A DNA stretch of 37,395 nt from Comamonadaceae bacterium (lineage in GTDB: Bacteria; Pseudomonadota; Gammaproteobacteria; Burkholderiales; Burkholderiaceae_C). The position numbers and the translations under genes were made by a program. Where the stretch lies: NCBI GenBank assembly GCA_947373605.1, contig CANBYM010000019.1, positions 1-37,395 of the forward strand. Reading direction: 5' to 3'. Below the pieces are notes generated by a model. The model was not told the origin of the DNA, did not search any database, and saw nothing but the letters and a program-made list of their open reading frames with translations. Shown here in pieces: positions 1-25,562 of the stretch (positions are counted from its first letter, which is position 1; the number at the start of each line of letters is the position of its first letter).

Positions 1-3000
1 TACAGCAAATCCGTCACCAACACGATCGACCGGGCGGCCGACTTCGGCAATAAACGCGGGCTGGTTCCAGCGTCTAACGCGAGCGCAAATTTATCGATAG
101 TGTCGCTGCTACAAGTAAGCAAGAGTTTTTCACCGTCTACTGTGGCGGCCGGGCAAATCGCGCCATTGATCATCACCATGACCAACGCGAGTCCGCTGAG
201 CACGGTTTCGCTGACGTCCTTCACTGACAATCCCATTGACGGAGTGGGCGCCGGGCCATACGGCCTTAAAGTGAACTCGGTAGCTACCACATGTTCAGGT
301 GCCGGTGCATCCATTACCGGGGGTAATACTGGAGTTACATTGACGGGTGGCAGCATACCTCCCTCAGCAAACTGCAACATCACGGTCAATTATGTTGGAA
401 CGCTGCAATCGGCGGGCGCACCGCAATCATTCACCAACACGATAGCGACAGGAGCCATAGGTACCACTGATCCAACTATTTTCAGTCAACCGGCGAGCCA
501 CTCCGTTACTGTCATTGACCAGTTGACCATTAGTAAAGGTGTCAATACTGGGACTGCCGGACCCGGGAATCCGGTGCAATACAGCCTTACCGTTAACAAC
601 TATTCAGCGACCGCACTGAACAATGTTCGCATTACGGACGTGCTGCCGTCCGGCATGATTGCTTTGCCCTCCAGCCCGGCCGCACCGTCTCTATCGGGTA
701 CTAATTGTTTGTTACTTACGACCGATATTCCCGCGCTGCCTCTAAGTAGTTCAACACCGCATTTCACGATTGGCACGGTGCCTGCTGGCGTCGGCCCGAT
801 CCCCTCCGTTTGTACCGTCGTCTTTTGGGCGATGCCACCAACCGGTGCTACAGTCGGCAGCAAATTTAACAATGCGATTGGCACAGGTGGCGTAGCCGAC
901 GGCAACGGCAATGGATCAAATGCCAACGCAAGTGCATCCAATTCAGTGCAGGTCACGATTGCCAGCGTCGCCACTATAAGCAAGGTATTTAATCCGAGCT
1001 CAGCATTTGAAGGAACCGTTTCACATTTAAAGGTTACCTTCTCCAATCTGTCAGCACAGCCACTTAGCAACGCCAGTTTTACTGACAATTTACCCCTTGG
1101 GAGTAGCGGTTTGCAATTAACGTTGGCAAGCCCCGCCAACGCATCCAGCACTTGCAGCGGCGCCACGCTGACCGCCGTGCCCGGCAGTTCTTCGGTAAGC
1201 ATGAGCGGTGCCACCATACCTGCCCGTGCGAACAACGGTGGTGGCGCGTTGGGTACCTGTTCCTTGACGGTGGATGTGATTGGTCCTGCGGGCAATTACA
1301 CCAACACCTTGCCGCAAGGTGCACTGACTGCTACGGAGACTTATGCCGATGGAACCACACATACGGCATCCAGTGTGGGACCAGTATCGGCCAGCCTTAG
1401 TTACGCTTCTGCGCTTACGGCCAGCAAACAGTTTAGTCCCGCCACTATCAGCTCGGGTGGCAGATCTACAGTCACTGTGCAGCTTGGGAACGTGGGTACC
1501 GGCATCCTGAATAACGTCAGCGTGACGGACCCACTGCCAGGGAATATGGTGGTGGCAACGCCTTCTAATGCCTATACCACCTGTGGTGGTACGCCGGCTA
1601 TTACTGCTGCTCCGAACGCGAGTTCTGTGGTCATGGCAGGTGCAGTGATTCCTGCCAGCGGTCAATGCAATTTGTTGTTCGACGTTACTGCGACTGGTAG
1701 TGCAAATTGGACCAACAACATCCCGCAGGGCAACGTGTCTGCTACCGGTGGTGTACAGAATGTGGCCCCCGTCACTGCTACGCTAACGAACTCCACCTTG
1801 GGCGGAGTGACGGTTACCAACAACGTGGCACCTAATAGTTTGACTGCGCCCGGACAGGTTGCCGTTTTGAGCATCAACATTGCCAATTCAGGAACGGTTG
1901 CTTTAACGGGTGTGGGCCTGACAAACTATTTCACTGCAAACGGCCTGGCTGTGGGCGTGGCAAACGGCATGGTCGTATCGAGCAACCCCGGCGCGACCAC
2001 GACATGCAATGGGGCAATCATCTCTGCATCCGGCGGTGCCGCGCAAGTCGGGTTGTCCGGCGCGTCACTGGCTGCCGGTGCGAATTGCACTTTGAGTGTC
2101 AATGTCACGCTCAACGTGACCGGAACCGTTCAGGACACTATTCCGTTGAATGCGATAAGTACTTCGCAAGGTGTCAGTAACACCCTGGTAAGCGTGACCA
2201 GTCTTTCCGCTTCGGCCAATATCGGTGTGAGCAAAACTTTCATACCGCCTGTCATCAAGCCGGGTGACCGTTCGCGCCTGCGGATTACTTTCATCAATCC
2301 ATTGTCAATTGCAGTCACCAGTCTGGCGGCGACCGACAACCTGGTCGGTATGACAGTTCCTGCCGGGGCTAACCCGTCTACCACCTGCAGCGGCGCTGTG
2401 ATTGCGTCTACTGCTAACCAGGTCACCATCAGCGGCGGCAGCCTGCCGCCCGCGTCGAATGGCGCCTCGGCGACCTGTGTGGCTGAAATAGATGTGACCG
2501 CGGCAACAACCGCGACCTATAGCAATCAAATTGCAGCCCACGCCGTTACCGGGATTGTTTCGGGTTCATCGGTTAACAACCCGGTTGCGGCCACGGCGAC
2601 GCTGCAAGTCAGCAATCCGGTAACGATCACCAAGTCCTTTAGCCCGGCAACTGTCCCGTTGGGAACGCAGTCGACCTTAACGATCACCTTGAATAATTCA
2701 AACAGCATTGCGTTGACCGGTGCGGTGCTGGTAGACGCCTTGCCCTCCAACTTAACGGTTGGCCTGACGCCGTCGGCAAGTACGACCTGCGGTGGCACCA
2801 GCGTCTACGTAGCTTCTGCGCCATCAGCGACATCAATCGCTTTGACGGGCGCCACTATTGCGGCGGGTAGCAGTTGTACGGTTACGGTCAACGTAGTCAG
2901 CAATTTCGCAGGCACCTATGTCAACACTATTCCCGGCGGCGCACTGAGTACAGTGGAGGGTGTCACCAATGAGTTGCCCAACTCAGGCACCGTAGTCGTG

Positions 3001-6000
3001 CAAAACCCGCCCACGGTGGGTAAGCAATTCAGTCCCGCATCCATTGCGGTTAACGGCACCTCGGTTCTGACGATTGTGCTGGGCAATACCAATGCTACGG
3101 CGGCGACCCTGACTGCGGACTTGGTGGATACCTTGCCTACTTCGCCGGCAAATATCGTGATTGCGCCGTCGAACGGCCTCAGCGGAACCTGCTTGTCGAC
3201 AGGCACTGTCGCTTTGACTGCGGGCAGCATCACTCTGCAAAACGGATCAACGATCCCTGCCGGTGGCTGCACGATCAGCGTTAACGTGACGGGCAATCTC
3301 AACGGTACCTATAACAATGCCATTCCCGTTGGTGCCTTGCAAACCACTTTGGGAAGCAACCTCACTCCTGCCACGGCCAATTTGGTGATTAGCCCGCTCG
3401 GGTATATCTCGGGTCGGGTTTTTAACGATAACGCACTCACCCCGAATGGTGTTTACGGCAGCCCGGACACACCGGTTGCTAACGCTGCCATTAATTTGAC
3501 CGGGACGGATTACGGTTCGAGCGGTGTCAGCAATGGCGGGACCAGCGTGGCGTTTAGCGCCTCGACGACCACAGACGCTTTGGGCAATTACTACTTCACG
3601 GGGCTGAACCCGGGTAGCTATACCGTCACCAGGCCTGGCATACCAACGGGTACTTTGCCTGGAATTACTACCGCCGGCACCATCAGTGGTGTTGGGACGG
3701 CGGGCGTTGCAACGGCATCGTCAGCGACGCCGGGTGCAATTGCAAACATTGTCTTGTTGAGAAATGCCGGGCTAGTCGCAAGCTCTGCCGACAATAATTT
3801 TTCCGATGTCATTGCGTCCACTATCTCCGGGACGGTGTTCCTTGACGCCAACGACAACGGAGTCTATGAGGCGGCGGACTCACCGCTACAAGGCGTGGCT
3901 ATTGAGCTATGGAACGCATCCGGTACCGTAGTATCGAGTACAACTACCGGCAGCAATGGCGTTTACAGCTTTAGCGGACTGGGCCCTGGAACCTATTCGA
4001 TTCATGAGCCGCTACAACCTGCCAACACTGCCAATGGGATAAGCACGGCGGGCAGCGTAGGCAACGGAGGGCACGCAGGTACGGCGACCCCGAATACGGT
4101 AGTTCCTAGCGTCATCGCAAATATTGCATTGCCTCCCAATACCAGCAGTCAGGGTAACAACTTTGCGGAAGTTCCCACGGGCCGTCAGATGCGCGGGCGG
4201 GTCTTCGTTGATGTTTTGAACACAGGCGTGTACGGCGGCAACGATTACGGTATCGGTGGCGTTTCGATCCAATTGAGCGGAACGGATCTGAACAATATGC
4301 CGGTCACCCAAACGACTTCCACAGCAGCGGATGGAAGCTATGTGTTTTCCGGGTTGGCTGCCGGTACCTATGTGGTTACAGAACCGGTAGACCCTGTGGG
4401 AACTACCAGTGGCAGAACGTCAGCCGGAACAACAGGGGGGACTGTGACCGCCGTCGGAGCTGCGCCGTCGTTCATTTCCGCGATAAATTTAAACGGCACC
4501 AATACGATTTCCGCGAACAACAATTTCCCGCGTCTGGTCGGTCTGGTTCCGGATCTAACTTTGTTGATGACGCATAGTCCGGCCAGTTTCGGCGCTGGCA
4601 GTACTACGGGCTACTACACCTTGACAGCTTCGAATGTCGGACCTCAGACCACATCCGGTAGGCTGACGGTGATTGATAACTTGCCTGCCGGTATCACTTT
4701 GACACAGACACCCGCCGGGACAGGCTGGACCTGTACTGGCGCAGCCGGTGCAAGTTCATTCACCTGCACCACCAACGATGCGATAGCAGCGGGCGCCAAC
4801 GGACCAGCCATCATTGTGCGTGTAGCTGTTGCGCCGGGTTTGCAGGGGCAGACCCTCACTAACACGGCTTCCATCTCCGGCGGTGCCGAGCCGGTGGCGT
4901 TGAACGGCAACAACACTGCCAATGATCCGACGCCCATTGCAGTGGGAGCCTCGGTGAGCGGGCATGTATGGCTGGATGTGACACATGATCGGAACTACGC
5001 CAATGCGAGCGATTACGGGCAAGCCGGCTGGGGTGTGCAACTGGTGCTCAATGGGGTTGTTGTTGCAAGCACCAGCACGGCTGCAGACGGTGCTTATATT
5101 TTCAGTAATGTTGCGCCTGGAACCGGTTACCAGATTCGCTTCCTTCATCCTGGCAACAACATGCCATGGGGCGGTGCTGTTCCCAATGAGTCTGCAACGC
5201 CCTTTACGTCCGGTGTCAATGCAGGCGTCACCAATGTATCAACGGGCATCCGCTCCGGCGCAAATCCGGCAGGTGCTACGACCACCGGCGGTACGCTTTC
5301 GGGTCTGACGCTGGCGTCGGGTATTGCGACGGTGCAGCAAAGCTTGCCGATAGATCCGACGGGAATAGTCTATGACGCAGTCAGCCGGCTGCCTGTCGCC
5401 GCAGCGGTTGTGACGATTAGCGGCCCAACCGGATTTACACCGGCGACTGACCTTGTGGGCGGACAAGCAAGCGAGACCACAGGGGTAGATGGTCGCTATC
5501 AATTTTTACTCAACCCCACTGCACCGTCCGGCACCTATCGCCTGGCCATCACCGCTTATCCCGCCGGATACGCCACGCAGAGTTCCGCAGTGATCCCGCC
5601 TTGTACCGCTACGCTGAACGTTGGTCCATCGCCGGCGCCGGCGCTGATACAGGTAAGCAATACCGCGCCGAATGCGGCAACGGTGGTGGCGACACCTGCC
5701 GGCTGCCCATCCGGTAGCGCGGGGCTGAATGCCACCAACGAGGCCAGCACCCAGTACTTCCTGTCGTTTCAGCTATCAAATAGTTCTGCCAATGTGATTA
5801 ACAACCACATTCCCATAGACCCGTTGTCAAGCACCGGGTTTGTCTTGAGCAAGACGGCCGACCGCCAGATAGCGCAGATCGGTGATACGGTGCGCTACAC
5901 AGTTGAGGTACGCCTGAATTCATCGGGTGTGTTGCCTCAGGTGACTGTGCGTGATCACCTGCCACCGGGCTTTACTTTGGTGCCCGGTACGGTGCAGGTC

Positions 6001-6801
6001 AACGGATTACAGGCGGCCAATCCGGTTGGCGGGCTGGGGCCATTGCTGGCATTCAACCTGGGCTTGCTACGTGGCACTGGCAACACCACCGCCGTTGGCC
6101 CCCAAGCCATTAAGTTGCAGTACCGCGTACGCGTCGGTATCGGAGCGCAGCAGGGCAACGGTATTAACACCGCAATGGCGGTCGGCTGCAGTTCAAGTAA
6201 CGGCTGTGTCAGCGCGCAGACTTTTCAGCCACTGACAAATAGCGTGTTGTCAAACCAGGGAAGCTACAAGGTTACCGTGAGCGGTGGTGTCTTTACCGAC
6301 CAGGCCTGCGTGCTGGGAAAAATATATGTGGAGTGCAATAACAACCACATCCAGGACGACGAGGAAATAGGTATTCCGGGCGTGCGCTTGTATTTTGAAG
6401 ATGGCACGTACGTGGTGAGTGACTCGGAGGGCAAGTACAGCCGCTGCGGCATGACGCCACGCAGTCACGTGCTGACGCCCGATCCGGCCACGCTGCCGCA
6501 GGGGTCGCACCTCACTACGTCAAGCAACCGCAACCTCGGCGATGCGAATAGCCTCTTTGTTGACCTGAAAAATGGCGAGTTGCATCGTGCCGATTTCATC
6601 GAGGGAAGCTGTTCCAACCGCGTGCTGGAACAGGTCAAGGCCCGGCGCACGCAGGGTGAGGTGAGGTCGGTTGAAACAGAGCGTGCAAACGGCTCGGCGC
6701 TGCGTTTCGAGAGCAAATCGCCGGGTTATCCGCTGCAGGGCACTGACAGTGCCAATCAGCCGCTGGTGAAGCCACGGCAAGGAGCTGTCAATGCGCAATA
6801 A
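1..6801 (+). CDS. Giant DUF11 / SdrD-B-like repeat surface protein (5' partial)
   Basis: The reading frame is open from base 1 to the TAA at 6799-6801, so the true start lies upstream; at least 2266 residues are visible. The GTG at 100 is only an internal codon. Eight tandem DUF11-like units of about 130-150 residues come first (about 115-3400), each opening with a motif like SKxFxPxxxxxG and closing with an N-T-I-P-like strand. Three SdrD-B/prealbumin-like domains follow (about 3400-4530; GRVFxDxNxxG and DGxYxFxGLxPGxYxV). Then come another DUF11 unit (4540-4950), an SdrD-B unit (4951-5340), a carboxypeptidase-regulatory-like unit (5350-5600), a DUF11 unit (from 5836) and a Cys-containing SdrD-B-like tail (6295-6620) with a likely calcium loop. 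Such domains build long extracellular stalks. No LPXTG, hydrophobic anchor or autotransporter barrel is present, so anchoring or secretion must come from elsewhere, plausibly from the next two genes. The function as adhesin or surface filament is inferred. Confidence 0.85.
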   Translation, partial: YSKSVTNTIDRAADFGNKRGLVPASNASANLSIVSLLQVSKSFSPSTVAAGQIAPLIITMTNASPLSTVSLTSFTDNPIDGVGAGPYGLKVNSVATTCSGAGASITGGNTGVTLTGGSIPPSANCNITVNYVGTLQSAGAPQSFTNTIATGAIGTTDPTIFSQPASHSVTVIDQLTISKGVNTGTAGPGNPVQYSLTVNNYSATALNNVRITDVLPSGMIALPSSPAAPSLSGTNCLLLTTDIPALPLSSSTPHFTIGTVPAGVGPIPSVCTVVFWAMPPTGATVGSKFNNAIGTGGVADGNGNGSNANASASNSVQVTIASVATISKVFNPSSAFEGTVSHLKVTFSNLSAQPLSNASFTDNLPLGSSGLQLTLASPANASSTCSGATLTAVPGSSSVSMSGATIPARANNGGGALGTCSLTVDVIGPAGNYTNTLPQGALTATETYADGTTHTASSVGPVSASLSYASALTASKQFSPATISSGGRSTVTVQLGNVGTGILNNVSVTDPLPGNMVVATPSNAYTTCGGTPAITAAPNASSVVMAGAVIPASGQCNLLFDVTATGSANWTNNIPQGNVSATGGVQNVAPVTATLTNSTLGGVTVTNNVAPNSLTAPGQVAVLSINIANSGTVALTGVGLTNYFTANGLAVGVANGMVVSSNPGATTTCNGAIISASGGAAQVGLSGASLAAGANCTLSVNVTLNVTGTVQDTIPLNAISTSQGVSNTLVSVTSLSASANIGVSKTFIPPVIKPGDRSRLRITFINPLSIAVTSLAATDNLVGMTVPAGANPSTTCSGAVIASTANQVTISGGSLPPASNGASATCVAEIDVTAATTATYSNQIAAHAVTGIVSGSSVNNPVAATATLQVSNPVTITKSFSPATVPLGTQSTLTITLNNSNSIALTGAVLVDALPSNLTVGLTPSASTTCGGTSVYVASAPSATSIALTGATIAAGSSCTVTVNVVSNFAGTYVNTIPGGALSTVEGVTNELPNSGTVVVQNPPTVGKQFSPASIAVNGTSVLTIVLGNTNATAATLTADLVDTLPTSPANIVIAPSNGLSGTCLSTGTVALTAGSITLQNGSTIPAGGCTISVNVTGNLNGTYNNAIPVGALQTTLGSNLTPATANLVISPLGYISGRVFNDNALTPNGVYGSPDTPVANAAINLTGTDYGSSGVSNGGTSVAFSASTTTDALGNYYFTGLNPGSYTVTRPGIPTGTLPGITTAGTISGVGTAGVATASSATPGAIANIVLLRNAGLVASSADNNFSDVIASTISGTVFLDANDNGVYEAADSPLQGVAIELWNASGTVVSSTTTGSNGVYSFSGLGPGTYSIHEPLQPANTANGISTAGSVGNGGHAGTATPNTVVPSVIANIALPPNTSSQGNNFAEVPTGRQMRGRVFVDVLNTGVYGGNDYGIGGVSIQLSGTDLNNMPVTQTTSTAADGSYVFSGLAAGTYVVTEPVDPVGTTSGRTSAGTTGGTVTAVGAAPSFISAINLNGTNTISANNNFPRLVGLVPDLTLLMTHSPASFGAGSTTGYYTLTASNVGPQTTSGRLTVIDNLPAGITLTQTPAGTGWTCTGAAGASSFTCTTNDAIAAGANGPAIIVRVAVAPGLQGQTLTNTASISGGAEPVALNGNNTANDPTPIAVGASVSGHVWLDVTHDRNYANASDYGQAGWGVQLVLNGVVVASTSTAADGAYIFSNVAPGTGYQIRFLHPGNNMPWGGAVPNESATPFTSGVNAGVTNVSTGIRSGANPAGATTTGGTLSGLTLASGIATVQQSLPIDPTGIVYDAVSRLPVAAAVVTISGPTGFTPATDLVGGQASETTGVDGRYQFLLNPTAPSGTYRLAITAYPAGYATQSSAVIPPCTATLNVGPSPAPALIQVSNTAPNAATVVATPAGCPSGSAGLNATNEASTQYFLSFQLSNSSANVINNHIPIDPLSSTGFVLSKTADRQIAQIGDTVRYTVEVRLNSSGVLPQVTVRDHLPPGFTLVPGTVQVNGLQAANPVGGLGPLLAFNLGLLRGTGNTTAVGPQAIKLQYRVRVGIGAQQGNGINTAMAVGCSSSNGCVSAQTFQPLTNSVLSNQGSYKVTVSGGVFTDQACVLGKIYVECNNNHIQDDEEIGIPGVRLYFEDGTYVVSDSEGKYSRCGMTPRSHVLTPDPATLPQGSHLTTSSNRNLGDANSLFVDLKNGELHRADFIEGSCSNRVLEQVKARRTQGEVRSVETERANGSALRFESKSPGYPLQGTDSANQPLVKPRQGAVNAQ
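115..3400 (+). repeat. Eight tandem DUF11-like domain repeats (protein level)
   Basis: Unit starts, judged by the SKxFxP-like opening, lie near 115, 529, 976, 1420, 1813, 2227, 2626 and 3016, so the period is about 390-450 bp. The repeats are diverged at DNA level and recognisable mainly in translation: an opening motif, a central Thr-Thr-Cys-Gly-like motif, an Ile-Pro-Ala-x-x-x-Cys motif and a closing strand. Each unit carries a conserved Cys pair. Old duplication followed by drift is the simplest reading. Confidence 0.75.
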
Positions 6802-9800
6802 GAACCAAGGTTACGTGCACTTGCAGCGTTCGCTGGTGGCGGTATGCGTGCTGTTGCTGGCGGCACAGCCCTGCAGCGTATTGGCGCAAGCGTTTGACGG
6901 ACGTTACGCGCCCTTGACCGGCGGCGACCGCAGTGCCTGGTCCGGTGCCGGTACGCCGCTGTATCCAATGGCTAACCCGGCCGATGTGCCATCCGATCAA
7001 CGCAGCGCGTTGTTCAAAGGCCAGTCGGGTAGGGTTGACTACAGCGCTAACAGTGAGGCTGCCCATCTGGTCGTCGAGGTCGACCGCAACGGGGTATCTG
7101 CTGATGGTCAGACGCCGGTTGGTGTCACGCTGCGGGTGCTGGGTAAGGACGGCAAGGCCTTGGCCAATGCGGTCGTTGCCACGATAGAGGTCAGCGGCGG
7201 GCGTATTTTGTTGCCCGGCGCAAAAACCGACGAACTCGGACCCGACGCGCGCAGCGCCGACCGCAGCACGCCCGGTGTGCAGCTCGAGGTGAAGAATGGC
7301 CTGGCGCACTTTCGCCTGCTTGCACCCATAACACCACAGGACGTGCAGCTGCGCGTGACCGTCGGGGAGCAGGAAGCGTCCGGCATGGTCAGCTTCGTAC
7401 CCGATATGCGCAAAATGGTCGCAGCGGGTTTGGTCGAAGGCATTATCAATTTCAGCAATGGAGCCAACCTGTTGGCGCCGGCCCATACCAATGATGGTTT
7501 CGACGCCGAGATCCAGCACTTCAGCACCGTGTTTGGCAATGGCCAGGCCAGTGCCGGTGCGCGCTCTGCTTTTTTCCTCAAGGGTGTGATCAAGGGCGAG
7601 TACCTTCTGACTGCGTCGTACGACTCGGATAAGGACGTGCAGTCGCGTTTGCAAAGCGCAGTGCGGCCGGATGACTTTTATCCTGTGTACGGCGATTCGT
7701 CGATCAAGGGCGAGGAGGCCAAATCGTCGACCGCCTTGTACGTGCGAATCGACAAAGACAAGTGCTATTTGATGTATGGCGACTTTGTCACAGGCGACGG
7801 GTTCAGTCAGCGCAGCGGTGGCGGGGCGGTGGCAGGACTGCAGCAGCGCAGCCTGGGCGCCTACAACCGCAGTGCGACCGGCATCCGCTGGCATTATGAA
7901 AAAGACAAGGTGACTGGCAATGTGTTTGCCATTAACGATACGTTGCGCCAGGTGATTGATGAGTTCGCCAGCCAGGGCAGCGGTCCGTATGCGCTGAGTA
8001 ACAACGGCGCCGTGCAGGACAGGGAGAAAGTGGAAGTGGTGGTGCGCGACCGCAACATGCCGGCGCGTATTCTGAGTACCACGCAGTTGATGCCGTTGGC
8101 AGACTACACATTCGAGCCGTTCAGCGGCCGCATTGTGCTTAACCAGTTTTTGCCGGCATTTGATCCCAACCTGAACCCGGTGTCGCTGCGCGTCACCTAT
8201 GAAGTGGACCAGGGCGGCGAGGCATTTTGGGTTCTCGGGGCCGACGGGCAGTTGCGCATCAATGAGCATTTCGAAATTGGGGGTTCGGCGGTGCAGGACC
8301 AGAACCCGCTGGCGGGCAACCAACTCACCAGCGCCAACGCCAGCTGGCGCATTGCACCAGGGACCATGTTGGTGGCCGAAGTGGCGCAGACAATCAGTGA
8401 AGTCAACACCAATCCGGTTAACCAGAATACCCTGCCGGGCCTGGTCAATATGAACGGTGACGTGGCGGGGCAGGCGTGGCGGGTTGAACTGGCACACGAG
8501 ACCGAGACTACCAAGGGACATCTGTTCATCGGCCAGTCGGACCCGACGTTCAACAATTTGGCCGCGCCACTTACCGGCGGTAAAGCAGAGGCGATGGCAC
8601 AGGGCTCGGTCAAGCTGTCCTCAACGACAGACATTTACGCCCAGGCACAACACAATGAAGACCGTAACCCTGGCATGGCAAGTAGTGACGAAGCCCAGGT
8701 CGGTATCAAGGTCAAGCTGACAGATCGCCTGTTGCTTGATGCGGGTGTTCGCGCGCTGAGTCAAAGCAGCGGAATTGTGGCAGCGACGGCGGCAGCGCCG
8801 TTTTCTTCCACCGCGGGCCTTACCGGCAGCATCGCCAGCGGTGCGGCGGGTAGTGCGACAGGCTATGGCAACCAGGTCATCGACACTGTCAGCGGTCTTC
8901 CCGTTATTCAGAACGGCACACTACCGGTACTACCCACGTTGAACCAGGCCAGCGGTATGCAAACCGAAACAGCACGCGTCGGCCTGGGTTTCAAGGCGAC
9001 GGACCGTCTGACGCTGGGGGGTGAGGTTGAATCGTCGGTTTCCGGCGACCCGCTGCAGCGGTATTCATTGGGAGGGGACTATCTGCTGGCGGAACGCACC
9101 CGCATGTATGCCCGCCTGGAGCAGCTAAGCGGTGTTTCCAGTCCGACCAATCCAACAGCGCCGAATGCCGACAGTGAAGCACTGGTGTTCGGCATTGATA
9201 CGTCGTATTGGCACGATGCTCAGCTCTTCAGCGAATACCGCATGCGTGATTCGTTGAGCGGCTCCGACACCGAACTGGCCTCGGGGGTGCGCAACAGCTG
9301 GTTGTTGAGCCCCGGCTTGCGTGCCAATACGGCCTATGAACGCACGGAAGTCCTGTCCGGAGCGGCACCCGTTACGCAGGCTGTTTCGGGGGGACTCGAT
9401 TACACGGCAGACCCACTGTGGCGCGGCTCTACCAAACTCGAATACCGCGTGAGCGGCGATGTACCCGGATCGGTCACCGATCAAGGGTTCAACACCACGA
9501 TGTGGCAGGTCATGGCCGCACGCAAGCTGAGCCGGGACTGGACCTTCCTGTCGCGCAACTATATGTTGCTGACCCAGCACGATGCGACCGGCAGTGTCTT
9601 TCAGGACCGGGTGCAGGTGGGCGCGGCCTACCGTGAAAACGATAGGAACCGGGTCAACGCACTGGCAAAGTACGAATACAAAACCGAGCAGGACAATAGC
9701 AATGCCGCGGTTGGACCACTGGCCAGCACTGCGCACATTGTTTCCGTGTTGGCTGACTACCATCCGTCGCGTCCCTGGTGGACCACAGGGCGCATCGCCG

Positions 9801-10156
9801 CCAAATGGCAGCAGGACCAGCTCGAAGGCGGTATCAACGACAGTTTTCAGGCCCAGTTGTTATCGGGGCGGATCACCTATGACGTCACAGAAGACTGGGA
9901 CGTCGGCGTGATGGCTGCAGTGCAACTCGGCCAGCATGCCTCGCAGCAGGCCGCAACCGGCGTTGAGGTGGGCTACCTGCTACAGCAAAACCTATGGCTG
10001 TCGGTGGGCTACAACTACGCCGGCTTCTCGGCCAATTCTGACCTTGCGGGTTATGAATACACCAGAGAAGGCATTTATTTGCGCCTGCGCTTCAAGTTTG
10101 ACCAGGACCTGTTCGCCGGATCCAACCAGAATATCAACCGTACTCTCGACCGCTGA
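6791..10156 (+). CDS. Large outer-membrane beta-barrel protein with N-terminal Ig-like domain
   Basis: The protein has 1121 residues. The start ATG at 6791 lies inside the last codons of the preceding gene (11-bp overlap ending in its TAA), implying translational coupling. Residues 1-33 form a signal peptide ending near Leu-Ala-Gln-Ala. Residues about 75-205 resemble an invasin-like Ig domain (a Gly-Val-Ser-Ala-Asp-Gly segment followed by alternating strands). From about residue 215 to the end the sequence is dominated by alternating polar/hydrophobic strands rich in Gly, Tyr and Asn, and it finishes with strands of the type YLRLRFKFD, as expected for an outer-membrane barrel. I see no TonB box or clear plug, so calling it a TonB-dependent receptor would be unsafe. 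Its place between an exported repeat protein and an OmpA-like protein suggests it secretes or displays the giant protein; this is inference. Confidence 0.75.
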   Translation: MRNKNQGYVHLQRSLVAVCVLLLAAQPCSVLAQAFDGRYAPLTGGDRSAWSGAGTPLYPMANPADVPSDQRSALFKGQSGRVDYSANSEAAHLVVEVDRNGVSADGQTPVGVTLRVLGKDGKALANAVVATIEVSGGRILLPGAKTDELGPDARSADRSTPGVQLEVKNGLAHFRLLAPITPQDVQLRVTVGEQEASGMVSFVPDMRKMVAAGLVEGIINFSNGANLLAPAHTNDGFDAEIQHFSTVFGNGQASAGARSAFFLKGVIKGEYLLTASYDSDKDVQSRLQSAVRPDDFYPVYGDSSIKGEEAKSSTALYVRIDKDKCYLMYGDFVTGDGFSQRSGGGAVAGLQQRSLGAYNRSATGIRWHYEKDKVTGNVFAINDTLRQVIDEFASQGSGPYALSNNGAVQDREKVEVVVRDRNMPARILSTTQLMPLADYTFEPFSGRIVLNQFLPAFDPNLNPVSLRVTYEVDQGGEAFWVLGADGQLRINEHFEIGGSAVQDQNPLAGNQLTSANASWRIAPGTMLVAEVAQTISEVNTNPVNQNTLPGLVNMNGDVAGQAWRVELAHETETTKGHLFIGQSDPTFNNLAAPLTGGKAEAMAQGSVKLSSTTDIYAQAQHNEDRNPGMASSDEAQVGIKVKLTDRLLLDAGVRALSQSSGIVAATAAAPFSSTAGLTGSIASGAAGSATGYGNQVIDTVSGLPVIQNGTLPVLPTLNQASGMQTETARVGLGFKATDRLTLGGEVESSVSGDPLQRYSLGGDYLLAERTRMYARLEQLSGVSSPTNPTAPNADSEALVFGIDTSYWHDAQLFSEYRMRDSLSGSDTELASGVRNSWLLSPGLRANTAYERTEVLSGAAPVTQAVSGGLDYTADPLWRGSTKLEYRVSGDVPGSVTDQGFNTTMWQVMAARKLSRDWTFLSRNYMLLTQHDATGSVFQDRVQVGAAYRENDRNRVNALAKYEYKTEQDNSNAAVGPLASTAHIVSVLADYHPSRPWWTTGRIAAKWQQDQLEGGINDSFQAQLLSGRITYDVTEDWDVGVMAAVQLGQHASQQAATGVEVGYLLQQNLWLSVGYNYAGFSANSDLAGYEYTREGIYLRLRFKFDQDLFAGSNQNINRTLDR

Positions 10157-10162
10157 AGCACC

Positions 10163-11230
10163 ATGTATAAAAACACGTTTTTACGGACTGTCTCCCGGAT
10201 TTTCAGCGCTAGCCTGTGTCTGTCGGGAGTGGGGTTTGCCCAGACCCCATTGAACGCCCCCGAGGCGCGCATATCGGACCCAGCCATCCACGCCGACTAC
10301 CGGGCCTATGAGCAACTCGAAGAGCGGATTCACCGTCTCAATGAACAGGGTATACCTGTGCGTGACTACTTTCTAAGCAAAGCCCAGTGCTGGCTGGACG
10401 TGTCCCTGCACGAATATTCACGCAATGACCGCACACCGTTCACGCAGGATGCCTTGACCGAATCAGAACGGTTAATCGTTTTGCTTGAACACCGGACGCG
10501 ACCGGCCTCTATGGAAACGCCGCTGGTCAACGGTGCAGCGCGCCTGCGTCCCGATTTGTGGGCGCGTACAGCAGACCTGAAGCAAGGTGCTGCGCTGGCA
10601 TGCGTGGGACGCGAGGTCGCATGTGCCGAAGTGGAATTGGTGCATGCCGGTAATGAGTTCAACCAGCAGCAGTGGCGCCACGCGAAACCGTATGTGCAAA
10701 TCGCCGAGGAACTGCTGTCGGATGCCAGTGCCCGCGCTGCCAGTTGTCCGGTGGCCGATGCGCCCGCACCGGCACCCCTTGTCCCTGTGCTCGCACCGGC
10801 TGCTGCTGAACGGGTGCCGGCTGCAGTGAGAGTAGCCCTGTCGGCACAGGTGCTGTTCGATTTTGACCAGTTCACACCGTCGCATATACGTGATGCGTCA
10901 CGGGCTGAGCTTGAAGCGCTAGTAGCCCGTGTCAAGCGCGACCACGTCCGGATCGGGTCACTGCAGCTCGTGGGCCATGCCGACCGCCTTAATGGAACGG
11001 GAAACAAGAATTACAACTTGCAGCTCTCGCAAAAGCGAGTAAAGACAGTGCGCGATCTGCTGGCGGCCCAAGAGATGGAAGTCTCCGGGGTCAGCATTGA
11101 CGCCCGCGGTGATACCGACCAGGTGCTGGCGTGCCAGAACCGGTTCAAGACGCGCGATGCGCTACAGGAATGCCTGTCGCCCAACCGGCGTGTGCAAGTG
11201 GAGTTGCTTGGGGTGATTTCGCAGAACTAA
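10163..11230 (+). CDS. OmpA-family peptidoglycan-binding protein
   Basis: The protein has 355 residues and starts 6 bp after the barrel gene's stop, as the third gene of the operon. Residues 1-26 look like a signal peptide (cleavage near Gly-Phe-Ala-Gln). Residues about 40-195 form a helical, Cys-containing N-terminal domain I cannot name. A Pro/Ala-rich linker (about 198-222) leads to a C-terminal OmpA-like domain (about 228-350): a Phe-Asp-Phe-Asp strand, Gly-His-Ala-Asp with Asp274, the Leu-Ser-Gln-Lys-Arg helix with Arg292, and a final Asn-Arg-Arg-Val motif. Asp and Arg at these places bind diaminopimelate in OmpA-like domains. There is no N-terminal barrel, so the protein is probably a periplasmic tether between the wall and the partner barrel encoded just upstream. 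The domain call is firm; the tether role is inferred. Confidence 0.85.
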   Translation: MYKNTFLRTVSRIFSASLCLSGVGFAQTPLNAPEARISDPAIHADYRAYEQLEERIHRLNEQGIPVRDYFLSKAQCWLDVSLHEYSRNDRTPFTQDALTESERLIVLLEHRTRPASMETPLVNGAARLRPDLWARTADLKQGAALACVGREVACAEVELVHAGNEFNQQQWRHAKPYVQIAEELLSDASARAASCPVADAPAPAPLVPVLAPAAAERVPAAVRVALSAQVLFDFDQFTPSHIRDASRAELEALVARVKRDHVRIGSLQLVGHADRLNGTGNKNYNLQLSQKRVKTVRDLLAAQEMEVSGVSIDARGDTDQVLACQNRFKTRDALQECLSPNRRVQVELLGVISQN

Positions 11231-11571: not shown

Positions 11572-14202
11572 TTACTTTGCCGTGATGGTCACCGGTATGG
11601 TGAGCGTAGCGCTCAGGCCGGCGTTGTCCACTGCAACCACTTTTAAACTGTAGCTACCTAAAACCGGGTTGGGCCAATTAGCGGTGAGAGTGCTTCCGAT
11701 AATCGAGAAGCCCATTCCGAGTGGCACGCCGGATATCGTGATGGCCATCGAAGTGGCAGCTGCGTCCGTGATGCTGATAGTGCCGCTCATCGCCTTGCCC
11801 ACCACACCAGTCATGGCTGCCGCCGTGATCAAAGGTCCTGCAGTGGCAATCTTGACTGTGTAAACACCTGTGCCACTTAGACTGGTTTTTGTGTCCTTGA
11901 CGGTTACGGTTACGCTAAAGCTTCCTACAACCGGATTTGCCCAACTCACAACACCGGCAGAATTTATAGTCATACCAGCAGGGGCGCCTGTAAGCGTGTA
12001 GGTAACTGGATTCGGTGCCGTCGAAGCCACCGTAAATGACAGGGCTATACCAGGCTTGCCAAGAATCGTTGCACTTCCCACGGAAGGAGGTAAAGGCGCA
12101 GATATGGCCACGCTGATCACGCCTTGGCCGATCAGTGAAGTCTTCGAATCCTTCGCTAATACGGTGACGCTGTAGTTCCCTGCAACCGGTGTGGCCCAAC
12201 TCAGGACGCCACTCGTGCTGATAACCATACCTGTAGGCGCGCCGCTAATGCTGTAAGTCACGGGATTTGTCGACGTCACAGCCGTAGCAAATGAAAACGC
12301 AGACCCCACTGAACCCGTGGCAGAAGCCGCAGCTACAACCGGCGCAGCTTGTTGAGCGATAGTGACTGTGTATACGCCCTGCCCGTTGAGAGCCGTCTTG
12401 CTGTCTTTTGCACTGACAGTGACTGCGTATGTGCCGACCAATGGGGCTGGCCAACTCACTACACCTGTGTTGCTGATGGTCATTCCGGTAGGCGCATTGC
12501 CCAGGGTGTAGGTGACCGGGTTGGGCGCAAGCACCGATGCGGTGAACGTCAGCGGGGTTCCCGCCACGCCGCCAATAGTCGCTGGGGTCACCACTGGTGC
12601 AGTGGCACTGCCTGACGATGTTAGTGCGCTTAGGAGTCCGGTGACATTGGGCGTGCCCAGCCCGGTCAGGGGGTCATAACCCACTTTGGCGGTGCAAAGC
12701 GCACAAGTGCCATCTGAACCCTTGGTAATGTCAGCAAACACGCTGGCATAGGTACCGGGTACCGTAGCAATCTGACCATATAAAACGGAGTGCGGCGCAC
12801 CTAGGACGGGTTTGCCCGACTGCGCCCGTGCTGCATTGGCAATCGCCATCAAGCCCGCCCATTGTGGAGTAGAAAGGCTCGTACCCCCCACACTCAGCCA
12901 ACTAGTTGTGGTGGTTCCCGGAGTTTGTACTGCGACATACTGACCTGACGCCGGATCCGCATTGAAAGCAACATCGGCCACGGCGCGGTGTGGCAAGGAA
13001 CTTACACCGGGAACTGTATTGTTCTGATAGCTCGGCGTCGGCGTATAGGCACTGACACCCCCGCCTGTGCCGGACCAGCTTATTTCACTGCGTGCTCCGG
13101 AGCCTGTGTAGGTCAGTGTGGTTCCACCCACTGCAACCACGTTTGATGAGACCGAAGGCCAGGAGACCGCTGCGCCTGAGTCGCCGGTCGCTGCAAGGTA
13201 CGTCATGCCCGCGCCCGTAAAAACAGAATCTACCGAACTGGTCCAACTACCTTCTGCAGCACCAAAGCTCATAGAAACAATGCCTGGCCCCATAGTGTTG
13301 GCCAATTTCACGGCACCCAACAAACTGTTGAGCGATGCATCTGGCGCTTCAATCAGCACAATGCGGGCTAACGGTGCGGTGGCGTGCGCCCATTGAACAT
13401 CAAGGGTAATTTCAGTGGCCCAACCCGCGTCATATGCGGGTGCGACGCTGCTCATAGTGCCATTTGCGGTGCTGAAAACTACGGAGAATTCGCATGCAGT
13501 TGGTGAAGCTGACGGCAACGGGAGTGCCACTGTCGACGCCATGGATTTAGTCGTGCAAGCTGACAAACCAAACTTGGTATTGAATGCCGCAAGCTCTGCC
13601 GCCGCATTGGGATCATGTTGCGCATCCACAATATAAATTGTCTGTCCCGCACCCATTTGTGCAGCCTGCGCTGCAGTAACAGTCGCGCCAGCAACGGGCA
13701 AAGAAGGCAAACCATAAGCCGCTCTGATCTGCGCCGGCGTATAGGTGGCAATCACTGTAGATGCCGCCATGGGCGCAGCGGACCCGTCGGCCGACATTTG
13801 TGCGTTACGCCGTGCACGCGCAGTGTGAGGCTCGCGCATATCTTGTGCTGTCAGGCGTCGAGTGGACAATTCGCTCAGTTCTGCCGAAATCGCCTGGTGG
13901 TGCGCAGCATGACGGGAGGATGCATCTGGATTGACAGTGTCTCTATCATCAGGTGCACTGAGCAATTCGGGTGCCGAATGGAAAAAGGGCTGTGCAATCT
14001 GCATGGCAGCCGCTTCCGGTAGATTCGCCATGTTGATCGTTAAGGTAGTCGAGCCTGTAGCCAACTGCGACTGGGGGCCTGCAGAAGTTGAACTACCGGT
14101 AGAACCACCATCGCCGCCACCGCAGGCGCTCAAAACCAGTGCTGCGCTAAGAGCAGGCAATGCCAAGCGCGATACAGTCGAACAAAATGGAATTTTTTTC
14201 AT
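11572..14202 (-). CDS. Sedolisin (peptidase S53) lipoprotein with four C-terminal Ig-like repeats
   Basis: The frame extends up to 14265, but the ATG at 14202 is preferred: it has GGAG 10 nt upstream and opens a lipoprotein signal with lipobox Leu-Ser-Ala-Cys (Cys27). The product has 876 residues. A short propeptide-like region (about 50-150) precedes the S53 domain (about 150-530). Catalytic residues are visible: Glu264 and Asp268 in ExxxD, the oxyanion Asp341 in Ala-Thr-Gly-Asp-Ser-Gly, and Ser442 in Gly-Gly-Thr-Ser-Leu-Ser-Thr-Pro. The end of the domain has the Asp-Ile...Gly-Tyr-Asp-Pro-Leu-Thr-Gly-Leu-Gly calcium-site pattern. Sedolisins are acid-active serine-carboxyl endopeptidases. Four Ig-like (He_PIG-type) repeats of about 82-90 residues follow. 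A lipid-anchored, surface or periplasmic protease is likely. The Ig repeats could bind substrate or hold the enzyme away from the membrane. A good sigma-70-type promoter lies upstream. Confidence 0.9.
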   Translation of the reverse strand: MKKIPFCSTVSRLALPALSAALVLSACGGGDGGSTGSSTSAGPQSQLATGSTTLTINMANLPEAAAMQIAQPFFHSAPELLSAPDDRDTVNPDASSRHAAHHQAISAELSELSTRRLTAQDMREPHTARARRNAQMSADGSAAPMAASTVIATYTPAQIRAAYGLPSLPVAGATVTAAQAAQMGAGQTIYIVDAQHDPNAAAELAAFNTKFGLSACTTKSMASTVALPLPSASPTACEFSVVFSTANGTMSSVAPAYDAGWATEITLDVQWAHATAPLARIVLIEAPDASLNSLLGAVKLANTMGPGIVSMSFGAAEGSWTSSVDSVFTGAGMTYLAATGDSGAAVSWPSVSSNVVAVGGTTLTYTGSGARSEISWSGTGGGVSAYTPTPSYQNNTVPGVSSLPHRAVADVAFNADPASGQYVAVQTPGTTTTSWLSVGGTSLSTPQWAGLMAIANAARAQSGKPVLGAPHSVLYGQIATVPGTYASVFADITKGSDGTCALCTAKVGYDPLTGLGTPNVTGLLSALTSSGSATAPVVTPATIGGVAGTPLTFTASVLAPNPVTYTLGNAPTGMTISNTGVVSWPAPLVGTYAVTVSAKDSKTALNGQGVYTVTIAQQAAPVVAAASATGSVGSAFSFATAVTSTNPVTYSISGAPTGMVISTSGVLSWATPVAGNYSVTVLAKDSKTSLIGQGVISVAISAPLPPSVGSATILGKPGIALSFTVASTAPNPVTYTLTGAPAGMTINSAGVVSWANPVVGSFSVTVTVKDTKTSLSGTGVYTVKIATAGPLITAAAMTGVVGKAMSGTISITDAAATSMAITISGVPLGMGFSIIGSTLTANWPNPVLGSYSLKVVAVDNAGLSATLTIPVTITAK
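11575..12600 (-). repeat. Four tandem Ig-like (He_PIG-type) repeats in the sedolisin gene
   Basis: Each unit runs about 82-90 codons and carries the recurring patterns Asn-Pro-Val-Thr-Tyr, Gly-Ala-Pro-Thr-Gly-Met, Gly-Val-Val-Ser-Trp and Ser-Val-Thr-Val-x-x-Lys-Asp-x-Lys-Thr. The first three units are close copies of each other. The fourth, at the C terminus, is diverged, with Gly-Val-Pro-Leu-Gly-Met in place of the third-strand motif. Confidence 0.75.
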
Positions 14203-14730
14203 GGCAACTTCGCTCCAAAAAAAGGGCGAGGGCCACGCTAAATCAATGTTGTGCAATTTCTGCAATCAAACTATATGGTTTGAATCAACACTGGCAACCC
14301 CGCTGCCGTTTCGCTCGCGCGAATTAGGCCGGTGGCTTTGCGTCCCTGTCTTTCGACAGGTTTGCCCTCAGGTATCCGCGACATGCGGGTACATCACTGA
14401 ATTCTACACAACAATTTTATTTTTATCAATTTTTTTTGCTCTCATTGTCAATGGTCAGAAGAGGCATGTTTTTGAAGGCACTTTTTGGCGCGTTGCGTCG
14501 CCCTCTCAAGGTCGGTGCGATTTGGTAATTGTGAACGCCATTGACTCCGTCTGACTGGCTATAGTCGGTAAATCACGCAAGATCAAGGCTCGTCAACTTC
14601 ATTTTGAGCAGTGCCCAGTACAAGAGGGCGGTACGGTGCGTTTCATGCCTGATAGCATCTTTACGAATTCTTCAAACGTCCCGACCAGCCGCACCCCATA
14701 ATCGGGGGCGATAACTTAAAAACACTGACC
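14203..14730. other. 528-bp divergent intergenic region
   Basis: It separates two lipoprotein genes read outwards. It holds the protease promoter (14270-14297, - strand), a 6-bp hairpin (CCTGTC at 14345-14350, GACAGG at 14355-14360) and an AT-rich island around 14400-14440 with long T runs. For the + strand gene I see only weak candidates: TATAGT at 14560 and CATAAT at 14697, neither with a well-spaced -35 box. Open frames here look non-coding. Confidence 0.5.
14270..14297 (-). promoter_or_regulatory. Predicted sigma-70-type promoter of the sedolisin gene
   Basis: On the - strand, TTGCCA (14297-14292) and TATAGT (14275-14270) are separated by 16 bp; each box matches the consensus at five of six positions. 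Transcription would start near 14263, giving a leader of about 60 nt before the ATG at 14202. The -10 box overlaps a palindrome TCAAAC-N6-GTTTGA (14266-14283), which could be an operator. Confidence 0.45.
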
Positions 14731-15957
14731 ATGCAACTGCGCGACCTCCGTATTCTTTTGATGACACTGCTTTTGTCAATGCTACTTTCTGCGTGTGGAG
14801 GTGGCGGAAGCGGGGCTCCTGCGCCCACCGGTGGGCTTACGCTCACGCCCGGTAATACGCAGGTGACGATTACTTGGGCGCAAGCCCCAGGGGTCGAGTA
14901 CTGGTTGATGTACGCACCAACAGCCTCGGCGATCGATATGAAAAATGCGCCGGCCGGGCACGTATGGGTTACCAATATCAGTTCCCCGTACACCGTAACT
15001 GGGCTGACCAACGGGACCACCTACTCATTTACCATGAACGGACGAACGGGCGGAGGCCCAGGCGGACCGCAAACGCCAACCGTATCCGCAGTACCGCGAG
15101 CAGCCGGTACAACAGGTCTGTGGACGACGGGTACGCCATTGGCAAACGACTTGCAAGGCGTGGCTACGGACGGTACGAATTACTATAGCGTTGGAGCACA
15201 AGGATCTGTCTATAAGTCAACTGACGGACAGAACTGGAGCAATGTTTCAAGTTCAGTTACCGGAACCAATACCCTGAGCGCGGTTGCATACGCAAATACC
15301 TCGGCGCTGTATGTTGTATCCGATACCGCCAAGCATGTTTACTATGGAACGGACCCTTCTAACTTGACGCAGGCTCCGGCACTTTCCGCCAACATCAATG
15401 CCTTTGCAACGGATGGGACAAATATCGTTGCCGTGGGCGACAGTGGAACTATTCTTTTGAGTACAACCGGTTCAACGTGGTCCGCGGCCAGCAGCGTTCC
15501 TGGATCAGCCAGTTTGTATGGGGTTGTTTATTCCAGCGGAATTTGGGTCGCGGTTGGTGCCAATGGTGCTGTTTACGTGAGTACTGACAGTGGTGCCCAT
15601 TGGGCCGTGCCCTCGGGCACATACTCGACAGTGGCTCAACGCCTCAACGGGGTTGCCGGCTACGGAACTTCGTTTGTTGCGGTGGGCGTCAATGGCACGG
15701 TGGTAACTAGCACGGATGGTGCAAATTGGTCATCACAAACTCTGCCCGGTTCAGCGACCTTTTACGCGGTGAACGCTTCTCAGTCCCAGTCTCAATATTT
15801 GATCGTTGGTGCTACGGGCACTGCGTTTTTGAGCACGGACTTGGCGACTTGGACTCCGGAAGTAACCAACCTCAGCAACGACCTTAAGGCGATAGCCGGA
15901 TCGGCAACCAAGTACGTGGTTGTGGGTCTTAGCGGTGCAAACGCGATATCCAATTAG
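14731..15957 (+). CDS. Lipoprotein with fibronectin-III domain and Asp-box beta-propeller
   Basis: The protein has 408 residues. A lipoprotein signal ends at Leu-Leu-Ser-Ala-Cys (Cys22) and is followed by a Gly-rich stretch. Residues about 33-125 look like one fibronectin type III domain (Thr-Ile-Thr-Trp, then Tyr-Thr-Val-Thr-Gly-Leu-Thr-Asn-Gly-Thr-Thr-Tyr). Residues about 130-405 contain repeats of the form Val-Ala-Val-Gly-x-x-Gly-x-x-x-x-Ser-Thr-Asp-Gly-x-x-Trp, which are Asp-box/BNR signatures of a beta-propeller related to YCF48-like or sialidase-like folds. No sialidase catalytic residues are evident, so I call no enzyme. The start is supported by the signal peptide rather than by its ribosome site, which is weak. 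It is divergent from the sedolisin, and both are probably envelope lipoproteins. The ligand is unknown. Confidence 0.75.
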   Translation: MQLRDLRILLMTLLLSMLLSACGGGGSGAPAPTGGLTLTPGNTQVTITWAQAPGVEYWLMYAPTASAIDMKNAPAGHVWVTNISSPYTVTGLTNGTTYSFTMNGRTGGGPGGPQTPTVSAVPRAAGTTGLWTTGTPLANDLQGVATDGTNYYSVGAQGSVYKSTDGQNWSNVSSSVTGTNTLSAVAYANTSALYVVSDTAKHVYYGTDPSNLTQAPALSANINAFATDGTNIVAVGDSGTILLSTTGSTWSAASSVPGSASLYGVVYSSGIWVAVGANGAVYVSTDSGAHWAVPSGTYSTVAQRLNGVAGYGTSFVAVGVNGTVVTSTDGANWSSQTLPGSATFYAVNASQSQSQYLIVGATGTAFLSTDLATWTPEVTNLSNDLKAIAGSATKYVVVGLSGANAISN

Positions 15958-16911: not shown

Positions 16912-16981
16912 GGGTAATTTCCATTAGTGAAAGTGAACGAATTGCACATGGTAAAGTGATTTGCAAATAAGAGGAGACACC

Positions 16982-17974
16982 ATGAAGACACACGGCACCA
17001 CTTCGCCGGCGGTATGGGTTTGTGCGCTATTTCTTGCAATCACGAGCATTGCAACGGTCCAGGCCCAAACCACTGCGTATCCTGCCCGGCCCATCACGAT
17101 GGTGGTGCCATTCCCGCCCGGGGGGCTGGCCGATACCGTGGCGCGCCCAGTAGCCGAGGCGATGGGCCGCGAACTGGGTCAAACTGTCGTGATCGAAAAC
17201 AAGGCAGGTGCCGGTGGTGGCATCGGAATGGGCGTGGCGGCCAAATCCAAGCCCGATGGCTACACCGTCCTCATGGCGCTCTCCTCATTTTCTGTCCTCC
17301 CCGAGGCCGATGCGCTGCTGGGCCGCTCACCCATGTACGTAATGGGCGATCTGCGACCGCTGGCCCGTTTTACTGCGGACCCCACGGTGCTGGCTGTGCG
17401 TGCGGACGCGCCTTGGAAAACGGTGAAAGATTTTGTGGATGACGCGCGTAAACGTCCCGGAGCGATCAACTACGGATCGTCCGGAAATTACGGCACCATG
17501 CACGTGCCTATGGAAATGCTGGCGCAAAGCAGCGGGGTACGTCTGATGCACATTCCGTACACCGGAGCAGGCCCTGCCGTACTGGCCTTGCTGAGTGGCC
17601 AGGTCGACGCACTGTCCACGGGGCCGGCCACGGTTTTGCAGCAGGTGAAGGCGGGCAAGATCCGGATATTGGGACATTGGGGCCAAGGCCGATTGGAGGC
17701 GTTTCCGGATGTGCCCAGCCTGAAGGATCAGGGATTCAATGTTGAATACGCTCAGTGGTCTGGCATGTTTATTCCCAGCACAACACCGGAGCCCATCGCG
17801 CAACGATTGCGCGCCGCCGCGCGCGCCGCGGCCAACGACGCCAAAGTGCGGGAAGCCATTCATAGTGCCGGAAGCCCCGTGTTGTACCTGGATAGCCCTG
17901 ACTTTGAAAAATATGTGCAGGAGGATGTCAAGCGCATGGTGGACGTAGTCCGGCGTATTGGCAAAGTGGAATAA
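16982..17974 (+). CDS. Bug-family (TctC-like) tripartite tricarboxylate transporter substrate-binding protein
   Basis: The start ATG at 16982 has AGAGGAG 5 nt upstream; an in-frame TTG at 16961 is not preferred. The product has 330 residues with a signal peptide ending near Val-Gln-Ala-Gln. Family features are present: Tyr-Pro-x-Arg-Pro-Ile-Thr-Met-Val-Val-Pro-Phe-Pro-Pro-Gly-Gly at the mature N terminus, an Asn-Lys-x-Gly-Ala-Gly-Gly motif, Pro-Asp-Gly-Tyr-Thr, Asn-Tyr-Gly-Ser-Ser-Gly, His-Ile-Pro-Tyr and Phe-Pro-Asp-Val-Pro. Bug proteins are periplasmic receptors for carboxylates or related acids. No TctA/TctB membrane gene is nearby, so this is an orphan receptor or works with a distant permease. 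It is followed after 14 bp by a paralogue. Confidence 0.92.
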   Translation: MKTHGTTSPAVWVCALFLAITSIATVQAQTTAYPARPITMVVPFPPGGLADTVARPVAEAMGRELGQTVVIENKAGAGGGIGMGVAAKSKPDGYTVLMALSSFSVLPEADALLGRSPMYVMGDLRPLARFTADPTVLAVRADAPWKTVKDFVDDARKRPGAINYGSSGNYGTMHVPMEMLAQSSGVRLMHIPYTGAGPAVLALLSGQVDALSTGPATVLQQVKAGKIRILGHWGQGRLEAFPDVPSLKDQGFNVEYAQWSGMFIPSTTPEPIAQRLRAAARAAANDAKVREAIHSAGSPVLYLDSPDFEKYVQEDVKRMVDVVRRIGKVE

Positions 17975-17988
17975 CAGGAACACAAACA

Positions 17989-21114: not shown

Positions 21115-21116
21115 GC

Positions 21117-25518: not shown

Positions 25519-25562
25519 GCAACGTCCTTTTTTTGCGAGCCGGATAAGTGATGCATGTTGAT
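25511..25562 (-). promoter_or_regulatory. Leader inverted repeat covering the RND permease start codon
   Basis: CAACATGCA (25513-25521 on the + strand) and TGCATGTTG (25552-25560) are perfect inverse complements, extendable to 11 pairs with one G-U. In the - strand message the downstream arm contains the AUG of the permease gene and the loop of about 30 nt holds the AAAGGA ribosome site. The fold would block initiation unless melted, a possible translational switch. Confidence 0.4.

Follow-up and report, generated by a model that had tools for sequence, protein, structure and literature searches.

Passenger followed by barrel is the order of the classical autotransporters; within the wider type V group, type Vd proteins run passenger, POTRA domain and barrel, and type Ve comprises the intimins and invasins. 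OmpA domains bind peptidoglycan in the periplasm. Stalks of DUF11 domains, since renamed CLIPPER, are widespread in bacterial surface proteins; the structure of an isopeptide-bonded domain has been solved (9IFR), and DUF7933 and SdrD_B are likewise listed among the isopeptide families, the triad being Lys/Asp/Asn or Lys/Glu/Asn (PMC12617251). DUF11 stalks with OmpA-like anchors have already been described, and in the accessible parts of these accounts the Gram-negative hold on the stalk is an OmpA-like or other C-terminal anchor, with no outer-membrane partner (PMC12617251, PMC10952558). Here we describe a three-gene operon from a Comamonadaceae bacterium (GCA_947373605.1) that encodes a giant DUF11/SdrD-B stalk protein, a barrel-like protein (P0002) and an OmpA-type protein (P0003). 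The window, meaning the whole 37,395-nucleotide stretch analysed, is the entire contig C19 (CANBYM010000019.1), one of 331 contigs in the assembly; below, L numbers label loci and G numbers label genomes. It is well supported that stalk and barrel form one system, and the three window proteins very probably work together. For DUF11 stalks this adds a specific, barrel-like partner, a C-terminal module with diagnostic value and a series of natural fusions. The stalk–barrel–clamp unit recurs and would serve to build a giant adhesin and keep it on the cell surface; as a unit it has apparently gone undescribed.

The CLIPPER adhesin B9T28_05395 of Acinetobacter silvestris shares with this system an isopeptide-locked DUF11 stalk and OmpA as its Gram-negative anchor (PMC12617251, PMC10952558). 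Unlike that adhesin, as far as the accessible description extends, the unit reported here is defined by a barrel-like protein of its own together with the conserved C-terminal module. A word search of the available text of PMC12617251 returned no occurrence of 'barrel' or 'outer membrane'. Full-text searches on DUF11, SdrD-B, OmpA and fibrillar adhesins, a scope outside which most subscription papers and bioRxiv lie, brought up no account of the barrel or of the unit. The TpgA model aligned with only the OmpA part of the third protein, at 76 bits against a cut-off of 350, and not over its whole length. TpgA itself presumably has an OmpA/peptidoglycan role, as its NCBIfam name also indicates. 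The AtaA/TpgA pair resembles the present system in combining a giant adhesin, a transmembrane part in the outer membrane and a periplasmic partner that also binds the wall (PMC13082670). On what this source covers, the clamp would find its closest functional counterpart in TpgA–AtaA; AtaA has a transmembrane domain of its own, whereas no trimeric-autotransporter anchor appears among the Pfam matches of P0002.

There are also similarities to type V secretion. Like type Vd proteins, the fused members of the family run passenger, periplasmic domain and barrel; like type Ve proteins, the system combines an immunoglobulin (Ig) stalk, an invasin-like Ig domain and a wall-binding domain with a barrel. 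Unlike either, it has no type V barrel, POTRA or two-partner secretion (TPS) family among its Pfam matches, and it departs from type Ve in using OmpA instead of LysM and in its opposite order. Its barrel region of about 920 residues and its division into separate genes in the window also differ from type V secretion. A literature search on a 'type Vg' subtype returned nothing relevant. The TraA/TraB system of Myxococcus is similar in its translationally overlapping operon, which pairs a tandem-repeat surface protein with a PF00691 OmpA partner; TraA differs in its MYXO-CTERM tag and Cys repeats (PMC3325183, accessible part). The TraB model scored 12.4 bits on the third protein, against a cut-off of 700. 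PMC12282271, on type XI secretion system (T11SS) cargo, was considered as a DUF11 source and set aside; almost all the 'DUF11' strings in its accessible text belong to DUF1194, and DUF11 itself is mentioned once in passing.

The coordinates, 11-bp overlap and 6-bp gap that an earlier note on this DNA had given for the operon match the open reading frames (ORFs) exactly. The giant ORF is open at its 5′ end, with 2266 residues visible; this end is missing because the window starts where the contig ends. Three conserved elements define the locus: a C-terminal module of 280 residues in the stalk protein (the C-module), the barrel-like protein, and a third gene in which a domain that we call helN precedes an OmpA domain. 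Searching the genome collection with the barrel alignment gave 297 matching stretches, and relatives are encoded in 290 of them. Of these 290, the 80 with the highest scores were kept and read, a selection biased to close kin; by record title they belong to Burkholderiales, Lysobacterales/Xanthomonadales and one Nevskiaceae bacterium. In 73 of the 80 the C-module is part of the upstream gene; it is fused to the barrel in one (L042) and lies downstream in one (L109); the five loci that lack it all have a barrel starting at a contig end. A helN gene directly follows the barrel in 79/80, and its OmpA part is present in 78 (in L067 it is cut by the contig end). With the module upstream in 73, fused in one and the third gene downstream in 79, the arrangement is not due to chance. 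Stalk and barrel genes overlap by exactly 4 bp in 26 of the 80 loci, taking longest-ORF starts. In the locus of Rhodoferax lacus (L075) none of the three ORFs is truncated. The window's own genome carries a second stalk-end and barrel pair (L022, G000:C254, 1-4775), in which both genes run off the contig and the barrel is 41% identical to that of the window.

Co-occurrence points the same way. Among 120 genomes of the order, at a profile cut-off of E ≤ 1e-15, the barrel was found in 22 and the C-module in 21, all 21 of them shared (hypergeometric P of 1.6e-22, counting genomes as independent and uncorrected for kinship), and every one of the 23 C-module matches lies within 10 kb of a barrel match. 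G076, the one genome with a barrel and no C-module match, is assembled in 520 contigs. A second survey covered 229 genomes of the class, with at most three candidates scored per genome; 32 had the barrel, 28 the C-module and 27 both, and 37 of the 42 C-module matches fall within 10 kb of a barrel match. As for the remaining five, the barrel is next door in L130 and in the same ORF in L131, both unlisted by the survey; in L132 the barrel is cut by a contig end, and contig ends leave L133 and L134 open. Of the 120 order genomes, 25 have strong DUF11 matches (E ≤ 1e-10), and 18 of these 25 are barrel genomes (P = 2.5e-12).

Several observations weigh against the explanation favoured below. Because the loci behind the C-module profile were themselves found through the barrel, the profile is biased towards co-occurrence. 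Five of the 32 class genomes with a barrel have no C-module at the cut-off (G171, G287, G295, G351 and G356); G287 has a weak C-module match in its barrel ORF, and in G295, G351 and G356 the stretches read are fragmented or run to contig ends. Seven of the 25 strong-DUF11 genomes have no barrel match and the window's own genome falls below the strong-DUF11 cut-off, so DUF11 on its own lacks both specificity and sensitivity. In G033 and L109 the barrel precedes the stalk gene, and L098 has no third gene. Beyond the closest relatives, helN was found in only nine of the 120 order genomes, and seven of these nine belong to the 22 with a barrel; in G033 about 1 Mb separates it from the barrel, in G045 it stands at a contig end, and G143 has helN and no barrel match. 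The stalk repeats of the same-genus orthologue in G018 keep the full isopeptide triad in only 5 of 12 aligned rows. The expectation that the giant usually comes with both partners stood for the barrel (18/25) and failed in part for helN (7/22); some of the barrel genomes without helN have OmpA in other genes.

The giant protein matched DUF7933 over nine stretches and SdrD_B and DUF11 over five each in Pfam. Its missing start can be judged from G018, which carries the whole operon with a giant of 2599 residues, a barrel of 1143 residues (70% identical to the window barrel) and a third protein of 346 residues. There the giant begins with a Sec signal peptide, recognised by eye and ending in SPMAWA, and continues into Ig-type repeats. 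A signal-peptide-like stretch was likewise seen by eye near the start of all 23 giants listed, and in most of them, L084 and L108 excepted, it leads directly into repeat-like sequence. The protein therefore has the combination that marks DUF11/CLIPPER adhesins, namely tandem isopeptide-type Ig repeats and a signal peptide, the latter seen by eye in the orthologue. Three complete giants searched against Pfam to E 0.01 matched DUF7933, DUF11, SdrD_B and related Ig or prealbumin folds. They contained no TPS or other recognised secretion domain, which bears out the earlier note's view that a TPS-type domain is absent, and extends it to the 5′ end of complete giants, where no known secretion domain was found. 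The same search found no known adhesive family, although an unfamiliar one could escape it.

Seven of the eight DUF7933-type repeats in the window keep the Lys/Asp/Asn triad, and many stalk repeats are expected, from their residues, to be able to form internal isopeptide cross-links (putative bonds). The C-module consists of DUF11 and SdrD_B domains with a VLEQVKARR end. As a family it matches 9IFR, the solved domain of the A. silvestris adhesin, at E 9.8e-12, and its Lys/Asp/Asn triad is present in 30/30 aligned sequences. Behind it, a tail with a [GA]T[DE]-type motif was found in 72 of 76 proteins examined; this motif may possibly serve as a docking or retention tag. The giant had been described as having no recognisable anchor; it does carry this conserved module and tail motif.

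For the barrel-like protein, no Pfam or NCBIfam model reached its cut-off. To E 0.1, Pfam returned only Big_1 and DUF2490, both below cut-off, and the T11SS/Slam barrel family DUF560 gave no match. Across 29 aligned members the N-terminal Ig domain matches Big_1 in 19 and Invasin_D3 in nine (E ≤ 0.01), and barrel families match a minority (Porin_4 in four, OMP_b-brl in four, DUF2490 in three). Ten Pfam families were matched by these members to E 0.01, none of them a type V barrel or POTRA; usher, Omp85, T11SS and TonB-receptor families are absent from the Pfam matches of the window protein, two alphaproteobacterial relatives and the 29 members. By eye the window protein has a signal peptide; its hydrophobicity alternates strongly, and a YLRLRFKFD strand lies near the C terminus. 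A sequence search of the PDB with the family, to E 10, gave a borderline match to an invasin Ig domain (E 0.019). Three other PDB matches, one of them over the barrel region (E 0.048), were taken as chance. An amphipathicity scan with 62 peaks over residues 68-1121, including the Ig domain, was too crude to serve as a strand count and was not used for that. We predict that protein 2 is a large outer-membrane β-barrel with an N-terminal Ig domain. Its earlier designation as barrel-like finds indirect backing in the hydrophobicity pattern and the weak barrel-family matches.

The third protein carries an OmpA domain (PF00691, E 1.2e-7, 32.4 bits against a cut-off of 27.2), and the aligned family matches an OmpA entry in the PDB at E 1.5e-29. 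Asp274 and Arg292, which we take to be the diaminopimelate contacts, are invariant in 26/26 third-gene proteins, and the matching Asp/Arg pair is kept in 18/18 other OmpA rows. The suggestion of an OmpA-type tether is strengthened accordingly, with OmpA domains recurring alongside stalk and barrel and their putative peptidoglycan-binding residues kept. helN gave no significant match in Pfam or the PDB; two weak PDB matches (E 0.49 and 0.97) were taken as chance. Two relatives, L021 and L025, have helN without OmpA. The clamp is the most variable part of the system: its OmpA domain comes from the third gene, the barrel protein or the stalk, and in some members none was found. In G143, the genome without a barrel match, a helN-OmpA protein (L121, G143:C44, 10016-11104) has a lipobox-like start by eye.

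Natural fusions indicate how the parts may be oriented. We compared 117 barrel ORFs (L030, on the same contig as L019, was left out), using for OmpA a model built from P0003 at E ≤ 0.01. The C-module is present in 23 of these ORFs, an OmpA match in 14 and both in eight. All 23 place passenger and barrel in one polypeptide with the passenger first, a feature of types Va and Vd that the window protein does not share. The separation of passenger and barrel had been offered as a contrast with type V secretion; in view of these members, the contrast is unsupported in that form. Pfam placed OmpA above its cut-off in four of six submitted proteins: L110, L113 and L114 have it before the barrel, and L117 has it between C-module and barrel. 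The stalk gene of L115 carries a weak OmpA match (1e-4) at its C terminus, and the gene after it encodes the barrel. A C-terminal OmpA-like stretch in L028 was unconfirmed by Pfam and was not counted. Since OmpA is joined to both sides in such fusions, the C terminus of the stalk and the N terminus of the barrel, together with OmpA, should be periplasmic. If both ends are, an external stalk must cross the outer membrane with its C terminus left inside. This makes export and anchoring directly testable.

Fused and split forms interleave on a tree of 117 rows (a quick tree with long branches, drawn on for this point only). L042, from Stenotrophomonas humi DSM 18929, is fused and falls within a split clade; its linker shows no signal peptide by eye, and another copy in that strain (L083) is split. 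Relative to the fused forms, the split version in the window would break the chain within the periplasmic stretch before the barrel. One fusion, on G254:C2 (L135, L136), is an open frame of 11,777 residues with many stalk-like repeats, a C-module match and a barrel. In L024, L025, L026, L143, L146 and L150, fused stalk-barrel genes are adjoined by separate stalk-like or DUF11-matching genes, which may encode additional subunits of the fibre. The proposal that stalk and barrel belong together is upheld by conserved order, co-occurrence and these natural fusions.

On balance we consider it probable that the operon encodes a fibrillar-adhesin display system with autotransporter-like logic, split in this genome into three genes. 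The giant would be exported by Sec and fold outside into a stalk of Ig-type repeats, while its C-terminal module and tail would remain on the inner side of the outer membrane. The second protein would sit in that membrane, its periplasmic N-terminal Ig domain receiving the C-terminal end of the stalk, and the stalk would most likely pass out through the barrel and then be held by it. From the periplasm, the third protein would dock and pin the complex to peptidoglycan through its OmpA domain. We infer topology, export through the barrel, docking and adhesion from sequence features; that the barrel itself exports the stalk is a step we favour by a little.

The barrel might instead only tether a finished stalk that another machine, such as a type I or II system, exports. 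No known translocator barrel family matches protein 2, the OmpA and Ig parts of the system suit anchoring, and a retained C terminus would also suit an adhesin exported separately and trapped in the outer membrane. The signal-peptide-like N-terminal starts of all 23 giants argue otherwise, as does the order of the fused forms, stalk then barrel, which is that of self-exporting proteins. The exporter-like genes in the window are an efflux set of the resistance-nodulation-division (RND) type, with no type I ATP-binding cassette exporter (type I or II systems were not looked for elsewhere in the genome). We regard a pure tether as unlikely, if still worth serious attention. A multi-subunit fibre, in which several DUF11-type proteins, the giant just one of them, would use the barrel as an usher-like platform, is suggested by stalk-like proteins of about 800-1010 residues with signal-peptide-like starts beside the fused genes in L024, L025, L026, L143 and L146, and by an Acinetobacter plasmid on which DUF11-annotated genes flank a fused gene and an OmpA gene. 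The window-type operons read hold a single giant stalk gene, and no usher or chaperone family appears among the matches of the three window proteins; we consider such a fibre improbable. That the barrel is a TonB-dependent-receptor-like uptake channel for ligands captured by the stalk, as the annotation of a Devosia relative and other plasmid matches would have it, is very hard to credit, since no TonB receptor or plug family was found by Pfam in the window protein, two alphaproteobacterial relatives or the 29 members (a TonB box was not looked for) and the association with a wall-binding OmpA domain suits anchoring.

Display through the barrel can also be framed more broadly, as a new type V-like class. 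An isopeptide-locked giant would leave through a barrel of a new family, its C-module being locked in the periplasm to the Ig domain of the barrel and to peptidoglycan; the same machine would be encoded as one, two or three genes in Gammaproteobacteria, with barrel relatives beside DUF11/SdrD-B proteins in Alphaproteobacteria and perhaps in Cyanobacteria. We advance this proposal tentatively, as one that may well prove too broad. A tblastn search of 72,556 plasmid records found the barrel in 13, two of which match 80% or more of the query at a single site. On the plasmid of Acinetobacter haemolyticus an OmpA gene comes after a fused stalk-barrel gene, and DUF11-annotated genes flank the two. 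In the Alphaproteobacteria, Devosia has an SdrD-B giant, a small gene and then a barrel annotated as a TonB-dependent receptor, a DUF11 giant in Sinorhizobium overlaps the barrel gene by 4 bp, and Pacificitalea carries a barrel relative on a plasmid. Plasmids of Cyanobacteria gave weaker matches, which come from the barrel sequence alone with the gene context unread. Annotations of the plasmid relatives include DUF11 protein, TonB-dependent receptor and hypothetical protein, among others. The barrel relative at L153:7233-10589, annotated as a TonB-dependent receptor, has no such Pfam family to E 0.05. The features of the window operon are collected in Table 1.

Table 1 Features of the three-gene operon, in window coordinates
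Feature	Position	Strand	Basis
Giant stalk gene, 5′ end missing	1..6801	+	ORF, Pfam and same-genus orthologue
Eight DUF7933-type Ig repeats	112..3354	+	Pfam; Lys/Asp/Asn triad in 7/8
Stalk C-terminal module (DUF11 + SdrD_B + VLEQVKARR end)	5830..6702	+	Conserved, barrel-linked
Stalk C-terminal tail, [GA]T[DE]-type motif	6703..6798	+	Conserved
Barrel-like protein, 1121 aa, N-terminal signal peptide by eye	6791..10156	+	
Big_1 / invasin-D3-like Ig domain, before barrel region	7070..7240	+	Sub-cut-off Pfam in window protein
Predicted large outer-membrane β-barrel region, ~920 aa	7391..10153	+	Sequence-based
Third gene: signal peptide (by eye), helN, OmpA domain; 355 aa	10163..11230	+	
helN, conserved, presumably helical domain of third protein	10265..10726	+	Name coined here
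OmpA C-terminal-type domain	10838..11212	+	Pfam PF00691, PDB match

Convergent with the operon lies an ORF of 897 residues (11572-14265, minus strand) with no Pfam match at E ≤ 1e-4; also near the operon is a protein of 408 residues with an fn3-type domain (14731-15957, plus strand). Two adjacent TctC-type solute receptors occupy 16961-18969 on the plus strand, adjoined by an FAA hydrolase gene on the opposite strand. The RND efflux set (19687-25611, minus strand) comprises an outer-membrane factor, an HlyD-type fusion protein and an AcrB-type pump.

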